Virus record (IMG/VR): IMGVR_UViG_3300025151_000350
Coordinates: 1-21,646 of that record
Direction: 5' to 3' (one strand)
DNA: 21,646 nucleotides
DNA from: a virus
Numbering within the stretch: position 1 is the first letter of the stretch; every line of letters starts with the position of its first letter. Positions 3,460-15,528 of this stretch are shown piece by piece. The notes under the pieces were generated by a model. That model was not told the origin of the DNA. It saw only the letters and a list, made by a program, of their open reading frames with translations, and did no database searches. The translations under genes were made by a program, and so were the position numbers.

Positions 3460-3597
3460 GTGCAAGCAGCGCACCAGATGGCGGATCGGTTCAACCGCAA
3501 CATGGCAATACAGCACGACTTGTCTGTAGTGCCTGAAGCCGAAGCAACAAAAGAGATTCTTGAGGTAGTAAGGCCCGATTGGTATACTACGCCTTGA
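3460..3597 (+). CDS. short hypothetical protein, start uncertain
   Basis: The frame reads like protein from just after the DUF3310 stop (GVDSRDAQLAVQAAHQMADR onward) to the TGA at 3595-3597, but no good start is visible. GTG at 3460 (45 residues) and ATG at 3478 (39 residues) both lack a ribosome-binding site. The frame is -1 relative to DUF3310, so it may be reached by coupling or by frameshift. The last bases also hold the promoter of the downstream small RNA. Function unknown. Confidence 0.4.
   Translation: MQAAHQMADRFNRNMAIQHDLSVVPEAEATKEILEVVRPDWYTTP
3560..3588 (+). promoter_or_regulatory. strong sigma70-like promoter for the small RNA
   Basis: TTGAGG (3560-3565), a 17-base spacer and TATACT (3583-3588), with TGG immediately before the -10 as an extended -10. 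It lies inside the end of the upstream ORF, as expected for an independently transcribed small RNA. Predicted start is about 3595. Confidence 0.65.
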
Positions 3598-3702
3598 CGG
3601 TCATTCCGTCATTTCAAACGTTTTAGGATTCTAGTAGGCTTTTCTCCCAAAGTGAGTTGAACTGAATCCGACTCCCAGCCCCCCGCAAAGGGGGGCTTTT
3701 TT
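3595..3702 (+). ncRNA. candidate small regulatory RNA with anti-RBS loop
   Basis: About 108 nt between a strong promoter and an intrinsic terminator, with no ORF. Three stem-loops can be drawn. SL1 is TGACGG/CCGTCA (3595-3600 with 3606-3611). SL2 is closed by GGATTC/GAATCC (3626-3631 with 3664-3669), extended by AGT/ACT, with an inner CTTT/AAAG stem showing a TCTCCC loop (3643-3648). SL3 is the terminator. TCTCCCAAAGT (3643-3653) is the exact reverse complement of ACTTTGGGAGA, the ribosome-binding element in seven leaders of this window. Complementarity reaches 14 nt for the leader at 7068-7081. C-rich loops that bind Shine-Dalgarno sequences are a known bacterial sRNA mechanism; its use here is inference. 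Confidence 0.6.
3677..3702 (+). terminator. intrinsic terminator
   Basis: Perfect 8-bp stem AGCCCCCC/GGGGGGCT (3677-3684 with 3690-3697), 5-base loop and T6. It ends the small RNA and the rightward left-hand operon, just before a convergent minus-strand gene. Confidence 0.9.
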
Positions 3703-4840: not shown

Positions 4841-5040
4841 TGAGTATGCGCGACGTTTCACGGCCCACGGTCCAATCCGGGGATGTTTGTTGGTATTGCC
4901 GGGGCCGCCTGATCTGGGGCGGCGATCACGACCTCTCGGAAGAAGAAGAGTTTTTCGACATGTCCAGCAATCTCTCCTGCTCGGACTGCGGCGCACACGT
5001 TATCTACTATCGCCTGAAGGACGAAGAAGATGACGATTAA
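4840..5040 (+). CDS. acidic zinc-ribbon protein
   Basis: 66 residues with CWYC (C17/C20) and CSDC (C47/C50) separated by an acidic stretch, consistent with one zinc. The ATG overlaps the nuclease stop (TAATG) and GGAG lies about 10 bases upstream. Likely cotranslated with the Cas4-like nuclease. Partner unknown. Confidence 0.7.
   Translation: MSMRDVSRPTVQSGDVCWYCRGRLIWGGDHDLSEEEEFFDMSSNLSCSDCGAHVIYYRLKDEEDDD
4859..4873 (+). repeat. dispersed 15-mer variant
   Basis: CACGGCCCACGGTCC, 13 of 15 with the 5149 copy. Confidence 0.4.
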
Positions 5041-6308: not shown

Positions 6309-6321
6309 GTATGCGATAAAG
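6309..6321 (+). promoter_or_regulatory. GTATGCGATA promoter-like box in divergent region
   Basis: GTATGCGATAAAG, the same box as in the cassette leaders, 43 bases before the ATG at 6365. A GTATACGA half-like copy sits just to its left (6297-6304), so the divergent region may carry paired sites. Confidence 0.5.
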
Positions 6322-6966: not shown

Positions 6967-7081
6967 TTGACTTTACTCCCTTAGTATGCGATGATATAGG
7001 AGTCGGGGGTTATGCCCTCGATTTCTGTTGCCACCCGGTGACAGGGTATGTTCCACGTGGAACACTAACTTTGGGAGAAAA
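6967..7081 (+). promoter_or_regulatory. promoter and leader of the 7084 unit
   Basis: TTGACT at 6967-6972, box GTATGCGATGATATAGG at 6984-7000, a parS-like palindrome (7049-7064) where the other leaders have a GC hairpin, then ACTTTGGGAGAAAA (7068-7081) as RBS. The last element is complementary over 14 contiguous bases to the candidate small RNA. Confidence 0.65.
7049..7064. other. parS-like palindrome 1
   Basis: TGTTCCACGTGGAACA, a perfect 16-bp palindrome. It matches the core of bacterial chromosomal parS (TGTTtCACGTGaAACA type) with a symmetrical change at two positions. An identical copy lies at 15513-15528. ParB binding is inference. Confidence 0.55.
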
Positions 7082-7083
7082 TT

Positions 7084-7290
7084 ATGGAATTTTATAAGGG
7101 CTTTGAGATAGCGAGCGAGTTAGAAAATGTCGGCGGCGACGACCTCACTCGCGTGTACCGTGCTTATCGTACCGTGTTGAATGATTACACGTTTGAACCT
7201 GAGTGGGAGTACGTCGATGGCACAGCGGCCCACACAAAAGACGTATGTATTTCGCAACTTGATGATGTGATAGAAGAGGGAAAGGTATGA
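7084..7290 (+). CDS. unknown small acidic protein
   Basis: 68 residues starting MEFYKGFEIASELENVGGDD, acidic with aromatic residues. First gene of a three-gene overlapping unit behind the parS-containing leader. RBS GGGAG in the shared element. No family recognised. Confidence 0.7.
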   Translation: MEFYKGFEIASELENVGGDDLTRVYRAYRTVLNDYTFEPEWEYVDGTAAHTKDVCISQLDDVIEEGKV

Positions 7291-9184: not shown

Positions 9185-9240
9185 GCGATATATCGCATAT
9201 ACTTTTCCCTGCGGTATTCATTCATTGTTATGGGAGAAAA
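9185..9240 (+). promoter_or_regulatory. degenerate cassette leader (unit A)
   Basis: A 12-bp palindrome GCGATATATCGC (9185-9196) overlaps an inverted TATCGCATA and a TATACT -10 (9198-9203). The left hairpin arm TGCGG is present but its partner is lost. TGGGAGAAAA (9231-9240) is the RBS and matches the small RNA over 10 bases. Confidence 0.55.
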
Positions 9241-9242
9241 AC

Positions 9243-9452
9243 ATGAAACTGACACCTAGAGAAAGCGCCATTCAAATTGTGATTAATTTGATTGAAAATG
9301 AAATTCATGACCAAGAAAAAGAGGCCACGCGTGTAAGAGCATTTGGTATTCCGCCGGAAACGACCGATGCCGTTATAAGGCACCTCAAAAAGTACGCGCA
9401 CCAAATGCGCAGAAAAATTGGTGCTGACCCAATATATGAGGAGGTGATATGA
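9243..9452 (+). CDS. unknown basic helical protein
   Basis: 69 residues (MKLTPRESAIQIVINLIENE start), two or three charged helices. First gene of unit A. GGGAG lies about 7 bases before ATG. No family recognised. Confidence 0.7.
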   Translation: MKLTPRESAIQIVINLIENEIHDQEKEATRVRAFGIPPETTDAVIRHLKKYAHQMRRKIGADPIYEEVI

Positions 9453-9844: not shown

Positions 9845-9898
9845 TATCGCATATGCGATACTCTCCCCCTGCGGAATCCACCGCATCACTTTGGGAGA
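9845..9898 (+). promoter_or_regulatory. cassette leader, unit B
   Basis: TATCGCATATGCGATA (9845-9860), a perfect 16-bp palindrome holding the TATGCGATA box; hairpin TGCGG/CCGCA (9870-9885); RBS TCACTTTGGGAGA (9886-9898) complementary to the small RNA over 13 bases. Confidence 0.7.
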
Positions 9899-9904
9899 CA
9901 AATC

Positions 9905-10156
9905 ATGCAAACGGAAAAATTAAAACGCGTCGTCCTCATGCTTGAGGCCTATCACGGGGATTTAACGTATTGGAAATCCTGTGGCCTTGAAAATTGGGTG
10001 GCCTGTACGTCCGGCACACCCACCCCGCATTACAAAGATTTGAGCAAGCTAAACGAAGCGGAATGGCAACAGGCCGAATCCTTTATAACAGAGTATGTCG
10101 CGGATGTTGAATTAGCGATTGCCGACTTACAAAATTTAGTGGAGACGCAGTCATGA
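9905..10156 (+). CDS. unknown protein
   Basis: 83 residues (MQTEKLKRVVLMLEAYHGDL start), helical with a polar middle and an acidic C-terminal helix. First gene of unit B; RBS GGGAG in the shared element. No family recognised. Confidence 0.7.
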   Translation: MQTEKLKRVVLMLEAYHGDLTYWKSCGLENWVACTSGTPTPHYKDLSKLNEAEWQQAESFITEYVADVELAIADLQNLVETQS

Positions 10157-10848: not shown

Positions 10849-10894
10849 GTATGCGATAGTTCGGGTGCGGCAATCCGCCGCTTACTTTGGGAGA
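10849..10894 (+). promoter_or_regulatory. cassette leader, unit C
   Basis: GTATGCGATAGT (10849-10860), hairpin GCGGC/GCCGC with AATCC loop (10867-10881), then ACTTTGGGAGA (10884-10894). Confidence 0.7.
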
Positions 10895-10900
10895 TACACC

Positions 10901-12034
10901 ATGCAACATACGATTGAAAATTCAGACAACACCCTGACCCGCTTGCTTCAACAGGTGCAGGATCAAGCCGCCAGATCGCAGGATTTTCTGGCCCCCACTA
11001 ATCAACTTCAACTGATGACCGGTGATCGGGGCGATGGCAGTAAGGTCAGCCAGATCATCATGGAGCAGTCTGGCGGGGCACCGACTCAGATTCTCGCCGC
11101 TAATGAGGTGGCGTTTGATCAGATCAGCCAGCGGGCGGGTATCGACGTTCGGACTGCCCGCCGGTTACAGCAAGATTACTCCACCGAATTTGATGGATTG
11201 ATCAATGCTATCTGGCAGAAAGAACCGGCGGTGCGGATGATCCGCTCGTTTCAGCATTCTGACCGAGCAGGAACTGCCCGCGCATTTGTTAGCGACAAAT
11301 TCAAAACGTTCGATAACGTTCACCTGTTGCAGTCCGCACTGCCCGAACTGCTGGAAAGCGATGCCCAGTGGAAAGTGGTGAACGGTCAGGTGACTGACAA
11401 GCGGCTGTACCTCCGACTCAAGTCTGAAGTGATCACGGGTGAGGGCGCGGCGGTTGGCGACATCATGGCGCTGGGCATTGGTATGTCTAACAGCGAAGTC
11501 GGTTGCGGTAGCGTGAACGTGTTCCAAATGTTCTGGACGCTGGCCTGTTTGAACGGGATGCAGACCGAGAAGCGGACCCGCAAGTCTCACATTACTGGGG
11601 CGCGGGGCGATGCCGATACTTGGGGCCTGCTGACTGATGAAGCAAAGGATGCGGATAACCATGCGCTGGCGCTTCAAATGCGGGATGTCACGAGAGCGTA
11701 TGCTAGTCGCGAGGCGTTCGATGAAGTGCTGGAAAAAATGAAAGCGGCTCACGACGATAAAGTCGAGGGCTCGCCGCAGTCTGCTGTGGAGGCCATGGGC
11801 AAGGTGCTGGCGCTTACCAAAAAGGACACCGCCAGTTTGATGGACGGCCTGCTCGCCACTATCGGGCAGGCAGGCTACGCCGGTCAGCCGGTAACCCGCG
11901 CCACTATGGTGAACGCGGTGACGGCGGTAGCGCATCAGGCGGACCCCGATACGGTTGACGATTGGCAGAAACTGGGCGGGCGCGTTCTGGACCTGCCCCG
12001 CTCCGATTGGCAACGAGTAGCAATGGCGGCATAA
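10901..12034 (+). CDS. DUF932 family protein
   Basis: 377 residues. The segment RAFVSDKFKTFDNVHLL then RLYLRLKSEVITG, GDIMALGIGMSNSEVG and NVFQMFWTLACLNGM is the DUF932 signature found in many phages and plasmids; some relatives are called LGT_TIGR03299 plasmid proteins. The function is not established. The ATG at 10901 follows the leader RBS; an in-frame upstream ATG at 10832 lies before the promoter box and is rejected. It is the largest gene of the cassette array and has its own leader and terminator. Confidence 0.85.
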   Translation: MQHTIENSDNTLTRLLQQVQDQAARSQDFLAPTNQLQLMTGDRGDGSKVSQIIMEQSGGAPTQILAANEVAFDQISQRAGIDVRTARRLQQDYSTEFDGLINAIWQKEPAVRMIRSFQHSDRAGTARAFVSDKFKTFDNVHLLQSALPELLESDAQWKVVNGQVTDKRLYLRLKSEVITGEGAAVGDIMALGIGMSNSEVGCGSVNVFQMFWTLACLNGMQTEKRTRKSHITGARGDADTWGLLTDEAKDADNHALALQMRDVTRAYASREAFDEVLEKMKAAHDDKVEGSPQSAVEAMGKVLALTKKDTASLMDGLLATIGQAGYAGQPVTRATMVNAVTAVAHQADPDTVDDWQKLGGRVLDLPRSDWQRVAMAA

Positions 12035-12050
12035 CTCGGTCCCCAAAGTG

Positions 12051-12093: not shown

Positions 12094-12146
12094 GTATGCG
12101 ATAAATTCCCCCAGTGCGGCAATCCTGCCGCGTACTTTGGGAGAAA
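12094..12146 (+). promoter_or_regulatory. cassette leader, unit D
   Basis: GTATGCGATAAAT (12094-12106), hairpin GCGGCA/TGCCGC with ATCC loop (12116-12131), then ACTTTGGGAGAAA (12134-12146), 13 bases complementary to the small RNA. Confidence 0.72.
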
Positions 12147-12151
12147 TTTCT

Positions 12152-12355
12152 ATGCAAATTACAGCAGAAAAGCGCCTCGCCTCTGGGGCATTACATTCCG
12201 ATTATTTCAGCAGTCTGGACGCGCTCCGAGAGTCGGGCGTCATGAATATGTTTGGCGCTCCGAGTTGGCTTCAGGACAATTTTGATCTGAACCGCAATGA
12301 AGCGCGGGCGGTGTTTGTATCTTGGACCGAATCGTTTCAAGGGGGTGACGAGTAA
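12152..12355 (+). CDS. unknown small protein
   Basis: 67 residues (MQITAEKRLASGALHSDYFS start). First gene of unit D; RBS GGGAG in the leader. Its TAA overlaps the next ATG. No family recognised. Confidence 0.65.
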   Translation: MQITAEKRLASGALHSDYFSSLDALRESGVMNMFGAPSWLQDNFDLNRNEARAVFVSWTESFQGGDE

Positions 12356-12765: not shown

Positions 12766-12812
12766 GTATGCGATAGTGATCGGGCCGCGATTGGCGGCGA
12801 CACTTTGGGAGA
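12766..12812 (+). promoter_or_regulatory. cassette leader, unit E
   Basis: GTATGCGATAGT (12766-12777), hairpin GCCGC/GCGGC with GATTG loop (12784-12798; arms swapped relative to unit C), then CACTTTGGGAGA (12801-12812). Confidence 0.72.
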
Positions 12813-12817
12813 TTGTT

Positions 12818-13513
12818 GTGAAACTATTGGATACGCGGGGATCAAACCCCAAATTGAAAAAGACCGGCGCGGCGGCCCCGTTCCGGTACGCTGGGCTATC
12901 GCTCTACCCTGATCCGGTTTTATGCCCGGGCGCGAAGGCCGCCGGATGTATGGCGGAATGCTTATCCGAGCAAGGGCGCGGACGGTTTACCAGTGTGCGA
13001 GATGCCCGCCAAAACAAGGCCGAATTTTTTCACGGGGATCGGGCGGGGTTTGTCGAGCAATTGAGCAGGGAGCTGCTTAATTTCCAGCGAACGTGCGACC
13101 GGTCCGGCGAGCGGGGCGCGGTCCGGCTTAACGTGCTCTCCGATGTGGCGTGGGAAGCGCTGGGCATTCCGCAAGCCTTCCCGCGTTTGTTATTTGTGGA
13201 TTACACCAAACAGGCGGCGCGGCTTCAAAATACCCCAGACAATTACCGGTTGATATTCAGCTATAGCGGACGGCCCCAGTACCGGAACCAAAACCGGCGA
13301 GCATTCCTGACCGGTGCCCCCGTGGCGGTAGTTTTCCGCGGCGGGTTCCCCCGAGCGTTTCGCGGGCGGCCTGTTATCGATGGGGATCGCGACGACATCG
13401 CGAACGCATTTGCGGGCGGGCAGGTTGTGGCGCTAACCCCGAAAGGATCGGCGGCCCGTGATCGGTCCGGCTTTGTGATCGATAATCCCGACTTGATCGG
13501 GGCGGCGTCATGA
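12818..13513 (+). CDS. Gp88-like phage protein
   Basis: 231 residues from a GTG start 5 bases after the leader element. GSNPKLKKTG near the N-terminus, LCPGAKAAGCMAEC (C36, C44, C48), then RDARQNKAEFF and the VRLNVLSD and LLFVDYTKQAAR segments resemble the gene product 88 family of actinophages and many other phages, whose function is unknown. The three-cysteine cluster is the most notable feature. GC-rich codon use. Coupled by ATGA to the next gene. Confidence 0.65.
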   Translation: MKLLDTRGSNPKLKKTGAAAPFRYAGLSLYPDPVLCPGAKAAGCMAECLSEQGRGRFTSVRDARQNKAEFFHGDRAGFVEQLSRELLNFQRTCDRSGERGAVRLNVLSDVAWEALGIPQAFPRLLFVDYTKQAARLQNTPDNYRLIFSYSGRPQYRNQNRRAFLTGAPVAVVFRGGFPRAFRGRPVIDGDRDDIANAFAGGQVVALTPKGSAARDRSGFVIDNPDLIGAAS

Positions 13514-13701
13514 CTAAGCGGGAGCAGTGGCGAGCGAAGGCGGCGCGTTATCTCCGCTGGCATCGGGCGGCGATGCGCTCACGGTTTCCCGCTAGCGAGC
13601 CGGATTGGTTTCGGATGTATCAGGAAGCCAAAACCGCCGCGCATTACTGGGGGCGGCACGGGGAGCAAGCCCGCGCCCCCAGTTGGTATTTTCCCGAGTG
13701 A
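13510..13701 (+). CDS. small basic aromatic protein
   Basis: 63 residues (MTKREQWRAKAARYLRWHRA start), rich in Arg, Trp and Tyr. ATGA overlap with the Gp88-like gene; ends at a strong terminator. Basic helices suggest nucleic-acid contact; function unknown. Confidence 0.65.
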   Translation: MTKREQWRAKAARYLRWHRAAMRSRFPASEPDWFRMYQEAKTAAHYWGRHGEQARAPSWYFPE

Positions 13702-13742: not shown

Positions 13743-13788
13743 ATATGCGATAAAGGGCGGGCGGCAATGTTGCCGCGCACTTTGGGAG
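13743..13788 (+). promoter_or_regulatory. cassette leader, unit F
   Basis: ATATGCGATAAAG (13743-13755), hairpin GCGGCA/TGCCGC (13761-13776), then CACTTTGGGAG (13778-13788). Confidence 0.72.
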
Positions 13789-13796
13789 TTTTAAAA

Positions 13797-14237
13797 ATGG
13801 ATACAAAAACGCTAGTTGTCCGCCCCTCTGAGTTGATACTTGATCGGGTTTTAAATCCTGCCGGTGACGCGAATTTAAACCGCGTGAGCCCCGCCCAGCT
13901 TTTGAAAGCTTGCGGGACCGTTCCCGACTTTTTCGCAGAGGCCTGTATCACTGCCGAAACGGAAAACCCCGACGGCGTGAATATCGACGCTATAGCGGAC
14001 GCGATGGACCGCGTTTATCAGATGGGCGGGTTCTGCTACCCGTGGGGCGGAGATCTGGACGCGGACGGGGTTTATCGATCCCAATACGCTGAGGAAGCGG
14101 ATCTCTCGCCGCTGGTTCGGTTCGCCTATGCGGTGGCCATGGGCGGGCAGGCCTTTGAGTGTTTCGTCTATCAGGGCGGGATCACGGCGATCCGCGAGCG
14201 CGGAAGCGAAACCGCCAAGGTTGCGCGGTTCGATTAA
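13797..14237 (+). CDS. unknown acidic protein
   Basis: 146 residues (MDTKTLVVRPSELILDRVLN start), acidic, with a central MDRVYQMGGFCYPWGGDLDA segment and a C-terminal VRFAYAVAMGGQAFECFVYQ segment. A monocistronic unit with its own leader and terminator. No family recognised. Confidence 0.68.
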   Translation: MDTKTLVVRPSELILDRVLNPAGDANLNRVSPAQLLKACGTVPDFFAEACITAETENPDGVNIDAIADAMDRVYQMGGFCYPWGGDLDADGVYRSQYAEEADLSPLVRFAYAVAMGGQAFECFVYQGGITAIRERGSETAKVARFD

Positions 14238-14289: not shown

Positions 14290-14339
14290 GTATGGGATAC
14301 CCTCGGCGGGCCGCAATGGTGCGGTGACACTTTGGGAGA
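14290..14339 (+). promoter_or_regulatory. cassette leader, unit G
   Basis: GTATGGGATACC (14290-14301), a variant box; hairpin CCGCA/TGCGG (14311-14324; arms swapped relative to unit B), then CACTTTGGGAGA (14328-14339). Confidence 0.68.
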
Positions 14340-14345
14340 TCATCA

Positions 14346-14765
14346 ATGAAAATTGAATATGTAGTGATAGCGGATAACCACTGCTGGGGCGCGGGGGATT
14401 CTCTCCGCGAAGCGTTCAGCAATGCACATCTCCGCGAAAGTACGCGCCTTTCGTTTTTCGATTGGATTATTGACGCGGCGGAACTGCGCGAGCAGTGGGC
14501 TAGCTGGTGCGATTGGGGACGCGACGAATGGCGACACGCAAGCGAAGACGAAAAGCCGGTGGAGTGCGTGATTTACCCGCTGGATCGCGAGCAGTGGGCA
14601 AGCTGGCGCGTTTGCGACGTTACCGGCGGCCTTTCCGCTATCCCCAGCGATGAAAGCGTGACGGGCTCCGAGGCATCCGCCCGCCTTCGGGATCTAGTGA
14701 TCCGCGCCCAGTGGCATAACGGGGAACTGCGGCCCGTGAGCGATCCCGAGGGGGCCGAGTCGTGA
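14346..14765 (+). CDS. unknown protein with internal EQWASW repeat
   Basis: 139 residues, acidic and tryptophan-rich. REQWASW occurs twice (AELREQWASWCDWGRDE and PLDREQWASWRVCDV), suggesting a small internal duplication. Overlaps the next gene by GTGA. Function unknown. Confidence 0.68.
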   Translation: MKIEYVVIADNHCWGAGDSLREAFSNAHLRESTRLSFFDWIIDAAELREQWASWCDWGRDEWRHASEDEKPVECVIYPLDREQWASWRVCDVTGGLSAIPSDESVTGSEASARLRDLVIRAQWHNGELRPVSDPEGAES

Positions 14766-15512: not shown

Positions 15513-15528
15513 TGTTCCACGTGGAACA
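15513..15528. other. parS-like palindrome 2
   Basis: TGTTCCACGTGGAACA, identical to 7049-7064. Confidence 0.55.

Follow-up and report, generated by a model that had tools for sequence, protein, structure and literature searches.

The stretch of DNA analysed here, called the window (21,646 nucleotides, positions 1-21,646 of the IMG/VR record IMGVR_UViG_3300025151_000350), contains a candidate small RNA (sRNA), proposed to act in trans as an antisense RNA: by pairing with the ribosome-binding elements of an array of 7-9 gene cassettes, it would block their translation. A probability of about 0.8 is assigned to this reading. The predicted pairing is well supported, by complementarity beyond chance, a conserved fold and seed, an open loop, and the joint change of seed and leaders; transcription of the sRNA, the repressive sign of its action, and what it is for (timing or dosage) are inferred, in the absence of expression data.

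The small RNA locus and its predicted targets

The sRNA locus lies directly 3' of the last gene of the replication operon, and features the following elements:

3560-3588, plus strand: predicted sRNA promoter, by direct reading (-35 TTGAGG at 3560-3565, 17-nt spacer, extended -10 TGGTATACT)
3595-3702, plus strand: candidate trans-acting sRNA, about 108 nt, with homologs in about 30 contigs
3595-3611, plus strand: 5' stem-loop SL1, from the fold and the comparison of homologs
3626-3669, plus strand: stem-loop SL2, presenting the seed; its outer helix, GGATTC/GAATCC, covaries
3643-3653, plus strand: seed UCUCCCAAAGU, in the apical loop of SL2, complement of ACTTTGGGAGA by match search; CCAAAGTG is constant in homologs
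3677-3702, plus strand: intrinsic terminator, from sequence and fold

The -10 hexamer, TATACT, is located at 3583-3588, with a TG-G extended -10, and the 5' end of the sRNA (3595) is inferred from the promoter position; that the RNA has its own sigma70-type promoter and Rho-independent terminator is predicted from sequence, not from transcripts. The promoter, the stretch of about 108 nt without open reading frames, and the three stem-loops with a strong terminator had all been proposed in the first-pass annotation, and were found again: no reading frame crossing 3595-3702 is open past a short stretch, and the stems fall at 3595-3611, 3626-3669 and 3677-3702. The fold has an energy of -39.6 kcal/mol (z -3.5), equalled in one of 200 shuffles, and leaves the CCCAA of the SL2 loop open, with a mean unpaired probability of 0.90. 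Searched with the Rfam 15 covariance models, the sRNA matched no family at gathering score: the best score noted was for isrD, at 3657-3702 (22.7, against a gathering score of 37).

Eight gene starts carry a complement of the loop:

7068-7081, plus strand: leader element, 14-nt match, before gene 7084-7290
9231-9240, plus strand: weak element, 10-nt match without CTTT, before gene 9243-9452
9886-9898, plus strand: leader element, 13-nt match, before gene 9905-10156; TATGCGATA at 9852
10884-10894, plus strand: leader element, 11-nt match, before gene 10901-12034 (phrog_1362); TATGCGATA at 10850
12134-12146, plus strand: leader element, 13-nt match, before gene 12152-12355; TATGCGATA at 12095
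12801-12812, plus strand: leader element, 12-nt match, before gene 12818-13513 (GP88, PF17338); TATGCGATA at 12767
13778-13788, plus strand: leader element, 11-nt match, before gene 13797-14237; TATGCGATA at 13744
14328-14339, plus strand: leader element, 12-nt match, before gene 14346-14765; TATGGGATA at 14291

These eight match lengths, previously counted by eye, were all reproduced. The segment 3643-3653, described as the reverse complement of the leader element, is indeed so and, as TCTCCCAAAGT, is the sole exact minus-strand match of ACTTTGGGAGA in the window; on the plus strand, exact copies start at 7068, 9888, 10884, 12134, 12802 and 14329, while the copy at 13779 differs in the last base. 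The match at 9231 (TGGGAGAAAA), where the CTTT half is missing, is the weakest of the eight.

Matches of at least 11 nt to the sRNA are present at 7 of the 421 possible start sites in the window. Shuffled sRNAs, the control suggested earlier, match 0.16 start sites on average, with a maximum of 3, and none out of 2000 reaches 7. When overlapping 108-nt stretches from both strands of the window are compared, only the sRNA reaches the top, besides the antisense strands of the leaders themselves. A chance match, for which nothing but the shortness of the seed can be cited, may be regarded as practically negligible, given these shuffles and the conservation and co-change reported below. Two class criteria are also satisfied: a seed predicted to be unpaired that complements mRNAs from several other loci, as in trans-acting antisense sRNAs, and a UCUCCC loop facing GGGAG, i.e. 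a UCCC seed in a loop against a G-rich Shine-Dalgarno (SD) sequence.

In most of the strong targets, the terminator of the previous gene is followed by TATGCGATA, a G+C-rich hairpin (e.g. GCGGCAATCCTGCCGC) and ACTTTGGGAGA, which ends 5-7 nt upstream of the start codon; the distance of TATGCGATA (once TATGGGATA) from the leader element is about 36-40 nt in 6 out of 8 targets. TATGCGATA may be read as an extended -10 (TGC-GATAnn); a phage-specific promoter, also considered, reads as well, and the choice is undecided. A natural non-target is found at 6310, where TATGCGATA drives a gene without the element, whose SD is GAGGAAAAAG. The fixed module shared by the leaders would also fit a protein recognizing ACTTTGGGAGA, as DNA or RNA and in either orientation, with the inverse copy at 3643 as just another site. 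This is scarcely plausible: the leader copies are in sense orientation at ribosome-binding distance, and the inverse copy is presented by a loop whose RNA stem covaries, an arrangement that a DNA site does not need.

The array of predicted sRNA targets is located between the replication genes and terL. The same arrangement is seen in a near-complete record of 57.8 kb (G007), where the element precedes 8 genes, all at 45.0-52.2 kb between the replication module and terL, and the sRNA is found at 39.7 kb. The target products are GP88 (PF17338), the phrog_1362 protein and unknowns; no antirepressor is present among them in Pfam or PHROG matches. For the product of 10901-12034, an initial assignment to DUF932 was rejected: Pfam gives it no support, and PHROGs indicates phrog_1362.

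Other repeated sequences were noted in the window: a palindrome, TATCGCATATGCGATA, at 9845-9860; a parS-like palindrome, TGTTCCACGTGGAACA, at 7049-7064 and 15513-15528, which replaces the leader hairpin in some leaders of relatives; and four copies, unexplained, of a 16-nt repeat like CACGGTCCACGGGCCA, at 4859, 5149, 6029 and 7673.

Conservation and co-change of loop and leaders

Relatives were selected by similarity of the DNA polymerase alone, without use of the seed, yielding contigs from 99% to 71% identity. The sRNA is present in all 31 loci where the polymerase is at least 76% identical (76-99%) and the DNA is long enough; one locus, L009, was left out as the contig ends inside the sRNA. 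Only this set is free of ascertainment, because the regex searches used the seed. Relatives keeping the leaders but losing the loop, which would have refuted the first-pass proposal, are not found among these seed-independent loci: the loop is kept in 31 out of 31.

Across homologs, the 5' hairpin, the linkers and the terminator vary in sequence and length, while CCAAAGTG is invariant, in an alignment with some rows that the seed itself had retrieved. Forms of the SL2 outer helix include GGATTC/GAATCC, GGGTTG/CAACCC, GGGTTA/TAACCC, GGGATC/GATCCC, GATTCA/TGAATC and GGGC/GCCC. In 23 distinct homologs, 136 of the 138 cells pair; permuting the 3' arms gives 110.5 on average and 124 at most. Pairs were counted on end-anchored arms, because MAFFT alignments, of the whole RNA or of SL2, misplace the 5' arms. 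The loop core is open in 24 of 27 homologs (unpaired probability at least 0.83); the open loop faces competing folds in L002, L003 and L004. A promoter of the form TTGAx-17-TAxxxT, with a varying -10 sequence, occupies the same position in 27 distinct homologs, partly by construction, since these were picked using the promoter pattern. In the segment from SL1 to SL2, another C-rich motif hardly varies among homologs: (A)CTCC, frequently ACTCCTAAA, which might be a second seed.

A neutral scan was carried out for 9-mers located before at least 3 ATG starts, whose complement lies no more than 45 nt upstream of a terminator. Matches were obtained in 12 of 20 clade-1 contigs, and in all 12 the sRNA ranks top or joint-top, in ties with the 3'UTR element described below (L030, L156) or with an unrelated site (G001). 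In the background, 3 of 183 contigs have matches, all of low complexity. Several clade-1 and most clade-2 contigs are overlooked by the scan, partly because its terminator finder accepts only perfect stems and because three or more targets per contig are required.

Covariation of the leaders with the loop in related phages had been suggested as a check; the leaders do track its changes, with one partial exception (G005). In five relatives (L028, L029, L286, G001, G002) the loop is TCTCCAAAG, one C fewer (lost-C form UCUCCAAAG); the leaders seen in four of them (L028, L286, G001, G002) read CTTTGGAG, one G fewer. In the polymerase tree this CC group is nested in the CCC group, beside L027 and L030 (support 100/97), so the one-base loss is derived, and had to strike the loop and several leaders. 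Duplexes between seeds and their own leaders range from -17.8 to -25.0 kcal/mol, those of crossed CCC/CC sets from -12.0 to -17.7 kcal/mol. Pairing of the same leaders with the anti-SD reaches only -4.2 to -11.5 kcal/mol, against -16.9 to -25.0 kcal/mol for the own sRNA when G005 is included.

A separate monophyletic clade (100/99; L064-L081, e.g. L079:13432, with leaders at 13528 and 14610) has a shorter putative sRNA, with TTCCCGTAGTGA before the terminator, and ACTACGGGA leaders preceding one to four genes per contig; in L064, the promoter of this RNA is TTGCAA-16-TATATT. Homology between the clade-1 and the TTCCCGTAGTGA-clade RNAs is not settled.

Exceptions are also present. In G005, L034 and L035 a two-C loop, TTTTCCAAAGTGG, faces three-G leaders, so that only CACTTTGG plus a bulge pairs (-16.9 kcal/mol for the own set of G005), and G004 has one discordant leader. 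A variant leader, CTTTGGGGA, is seen in L210 and L240.

The locus might be merely the 3'UTR of the replication operon with its terminator, whose anti-SD-like C-rich loop would be complementary to gene starts as a by-product, without any dedicated regulon. It does adjoin the last gene of the operon, and downstream of polA, in L041, L043 and L056, hairpin loops near terminators read TTCCTCC, the anti-SD sequence itself. Yet the complementarity reaches over ACTTT, beyond the SD core, the seed changes together with specific leaders, and the promoter is retained, which makes this explanation very unlikely. At the level of sequence comparison, the joint changes of loop and gene starts argue strongly for control of a block of viral genes by one viral RNA.

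In L053:14125 and L054:12684, TTCCTTTTTTG, next to a terminator, is complementary to AAAAAGGA, which precedes four starts: these form a possible further seed-leader set, of low complexity.

An additional complement, absent from the first-pass list, is located in the window after the phrog_1362 gene:

12041-12050, plus strand: another complementary element, CCCCAAAGTG, within the phrog_1362 3'UTR, immediately before the terminator of that gene

In many relatives this element reads ACACTTCCCAAAGTGT; in the CC group, where the leaders read CTTTGGAG, it is mostly ACACTCCAAAGTGT. It is found in an ACACT..AGTGT hairpin (examples are L012:9550, L028:18887 and L240:1483); in L240 the 3'UTR element is ACACTCCCCAAAGTGT, alongside the CTTTGGGGA leaders. 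By analogy with icaR, it could target the leader of the same gene, or it could give rise to a second small RNA.

The sRNA appears to be carried by a marine phage family. Polymerase matches in genome bins are scattered (Verrucomicrobiales, Pirellulaceae, Maricaulis, Flavobacteriaceae, Dokdonia) and do not firmly point to a host. In the partial sequence examined of four named relatives (HTVC027P, 023Pt_psg01, HTVC023P, DSL-LC04), no leader and no loop of either of the two kinds was recognised.

Proposed mechanism

At the end of the replication operon, a dedicated sigma70-type promoter would drive transcription of the sRNA, which might in addition be produced as the 3' end of that operon. SL2 would display UCUCCCAAAGU as an open loop, forming 10-14 bp in trans with the ACUUUGGGAGA element of seven cassettes and with one weaker site; the duplex would mask the SD, preventing 30S loading and/or exposing the mRNA to RNase. 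A single RNA would thereby set the translation of the entire array, in line with the earlier suggestion of one phage RNA pairing with many cassette leaders, which conservation and co-change support.

The SD region of the leaders has a predicted unpaired probability of 0.22-0.70, and is largely paired at 12802 (0.22-0.30) and 12134 (0.28-0.34), while other leaders are open. The pairing could be real but activating or stabilising, by opening the leader structure or protecting the 5' end; RNAIII, for one, is reported to have a stimulating effect on the translation of hla (PMC9217828). In every leader, however, the duplex spans the SD itself, and the leaders pair much more strongly with the sRNA than with the anti-SD: activation is thus considered improbable, although for some leaders unfolding is not excluded, as the SD is not always predicted open.

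Dosage control and timing are equally possible: the temporal order cannot be deduced, because sRNA and leaders both have sigma70-like promoters. A T7-like RNA polymerase was searched for, but the control gave no signal, and its absence is not shown. Searches of three long records, which may be incomplete, yielded neither an integrase nor ParB_N, so lysogeny is not indicated. It is conceivable, if rather doubtful, that the sRNA serves superinfection control: a related phage entering the cell would have its cassettes silenced by the sRNA of the resident genome if it belongs to the same group, but not if it belongs to another, and this would drive the co-change of seed and leaders. The specificity groups, on this reading, would be CCCAAAG/CTTTGGG, CCAAAG/CTTTGGAG and CCCGTAG/CTACGGG, and are not excluded.

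If the proposed regulon is real, phages can run blocks of genes post-transcriptionally, by one RNA and a repeated leader. The natural compensatory changes, involving the loop and several leaders at once, offer ready-made orthogonal seed-leader sets; a search rule also follows for any phage genome, namely a repeated ribosome-binding element with its complement before a terminator.

Comparison with known systems

The closest parallels come from phage and staphylococcal RNAs. The c4 antisense RNA of phages P1 and P7 is structured, with a proposed loop complementarity; it acts on the ant mRNA, where pairing at the ribosome-binding region blocks translation, and its specificity differs between related phages, resulting in heteroimmunity (PMC12197685). 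The sRNA is likewise a phage-encoded structured RNA whose loop is complementary to phage ribosome-binding regions, and here too the predicted specificity varies among related phages. Unlike c4, it does not target an antirepressor, its targets being phrog_1362, GP88 and unknowns; 7-9 separate cassettes share one common element, the RNA is predicted to have a promoter and a terminator of its own, and the search for an integrase in three long records gave none.

In Staphylococcus, a UCCC-motif, C-rich seed of RNAIII and RsaE binds the G-rich SD of several mRNAs (PMC9217828). The phage sRNA would work alike, without being a sequence relative. In contrast with these bacterial RNAs, its seed is longer (10-14 nt) and extends past the SD, into a leader element dedicated to it, and seed and targets evolve together. 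The icaR mRNA carries a UCCCC motif in its 3'UTR, which pairs with its own SD (PMC3868564); the second element, after the phrog_1362 gene, resembles this 5'-3'UTR pairing but differs in its potential partners, which by sequence would include the leaders of other cassettes besides its own.

The phage antisense RNAs c4, sar, OOP and aQ are each described as targeting one phage gene. One viral RNA with a repeated leader, forming a regulon, would differ from these; priority cannot be claimed with certainty, as the coverage of the literature is partial. VpdS of the temperate phage VP882, an Hfq-bound, trans-acting sRNA, affects both phage and host mRNAs (PMC12197685). Like VpdS, the sRNA reported here is a trans-acting phage RNA with more than one predicted target; unlike VpdS, it would act through a repeated leader, forming a regulon inside the phage itself.
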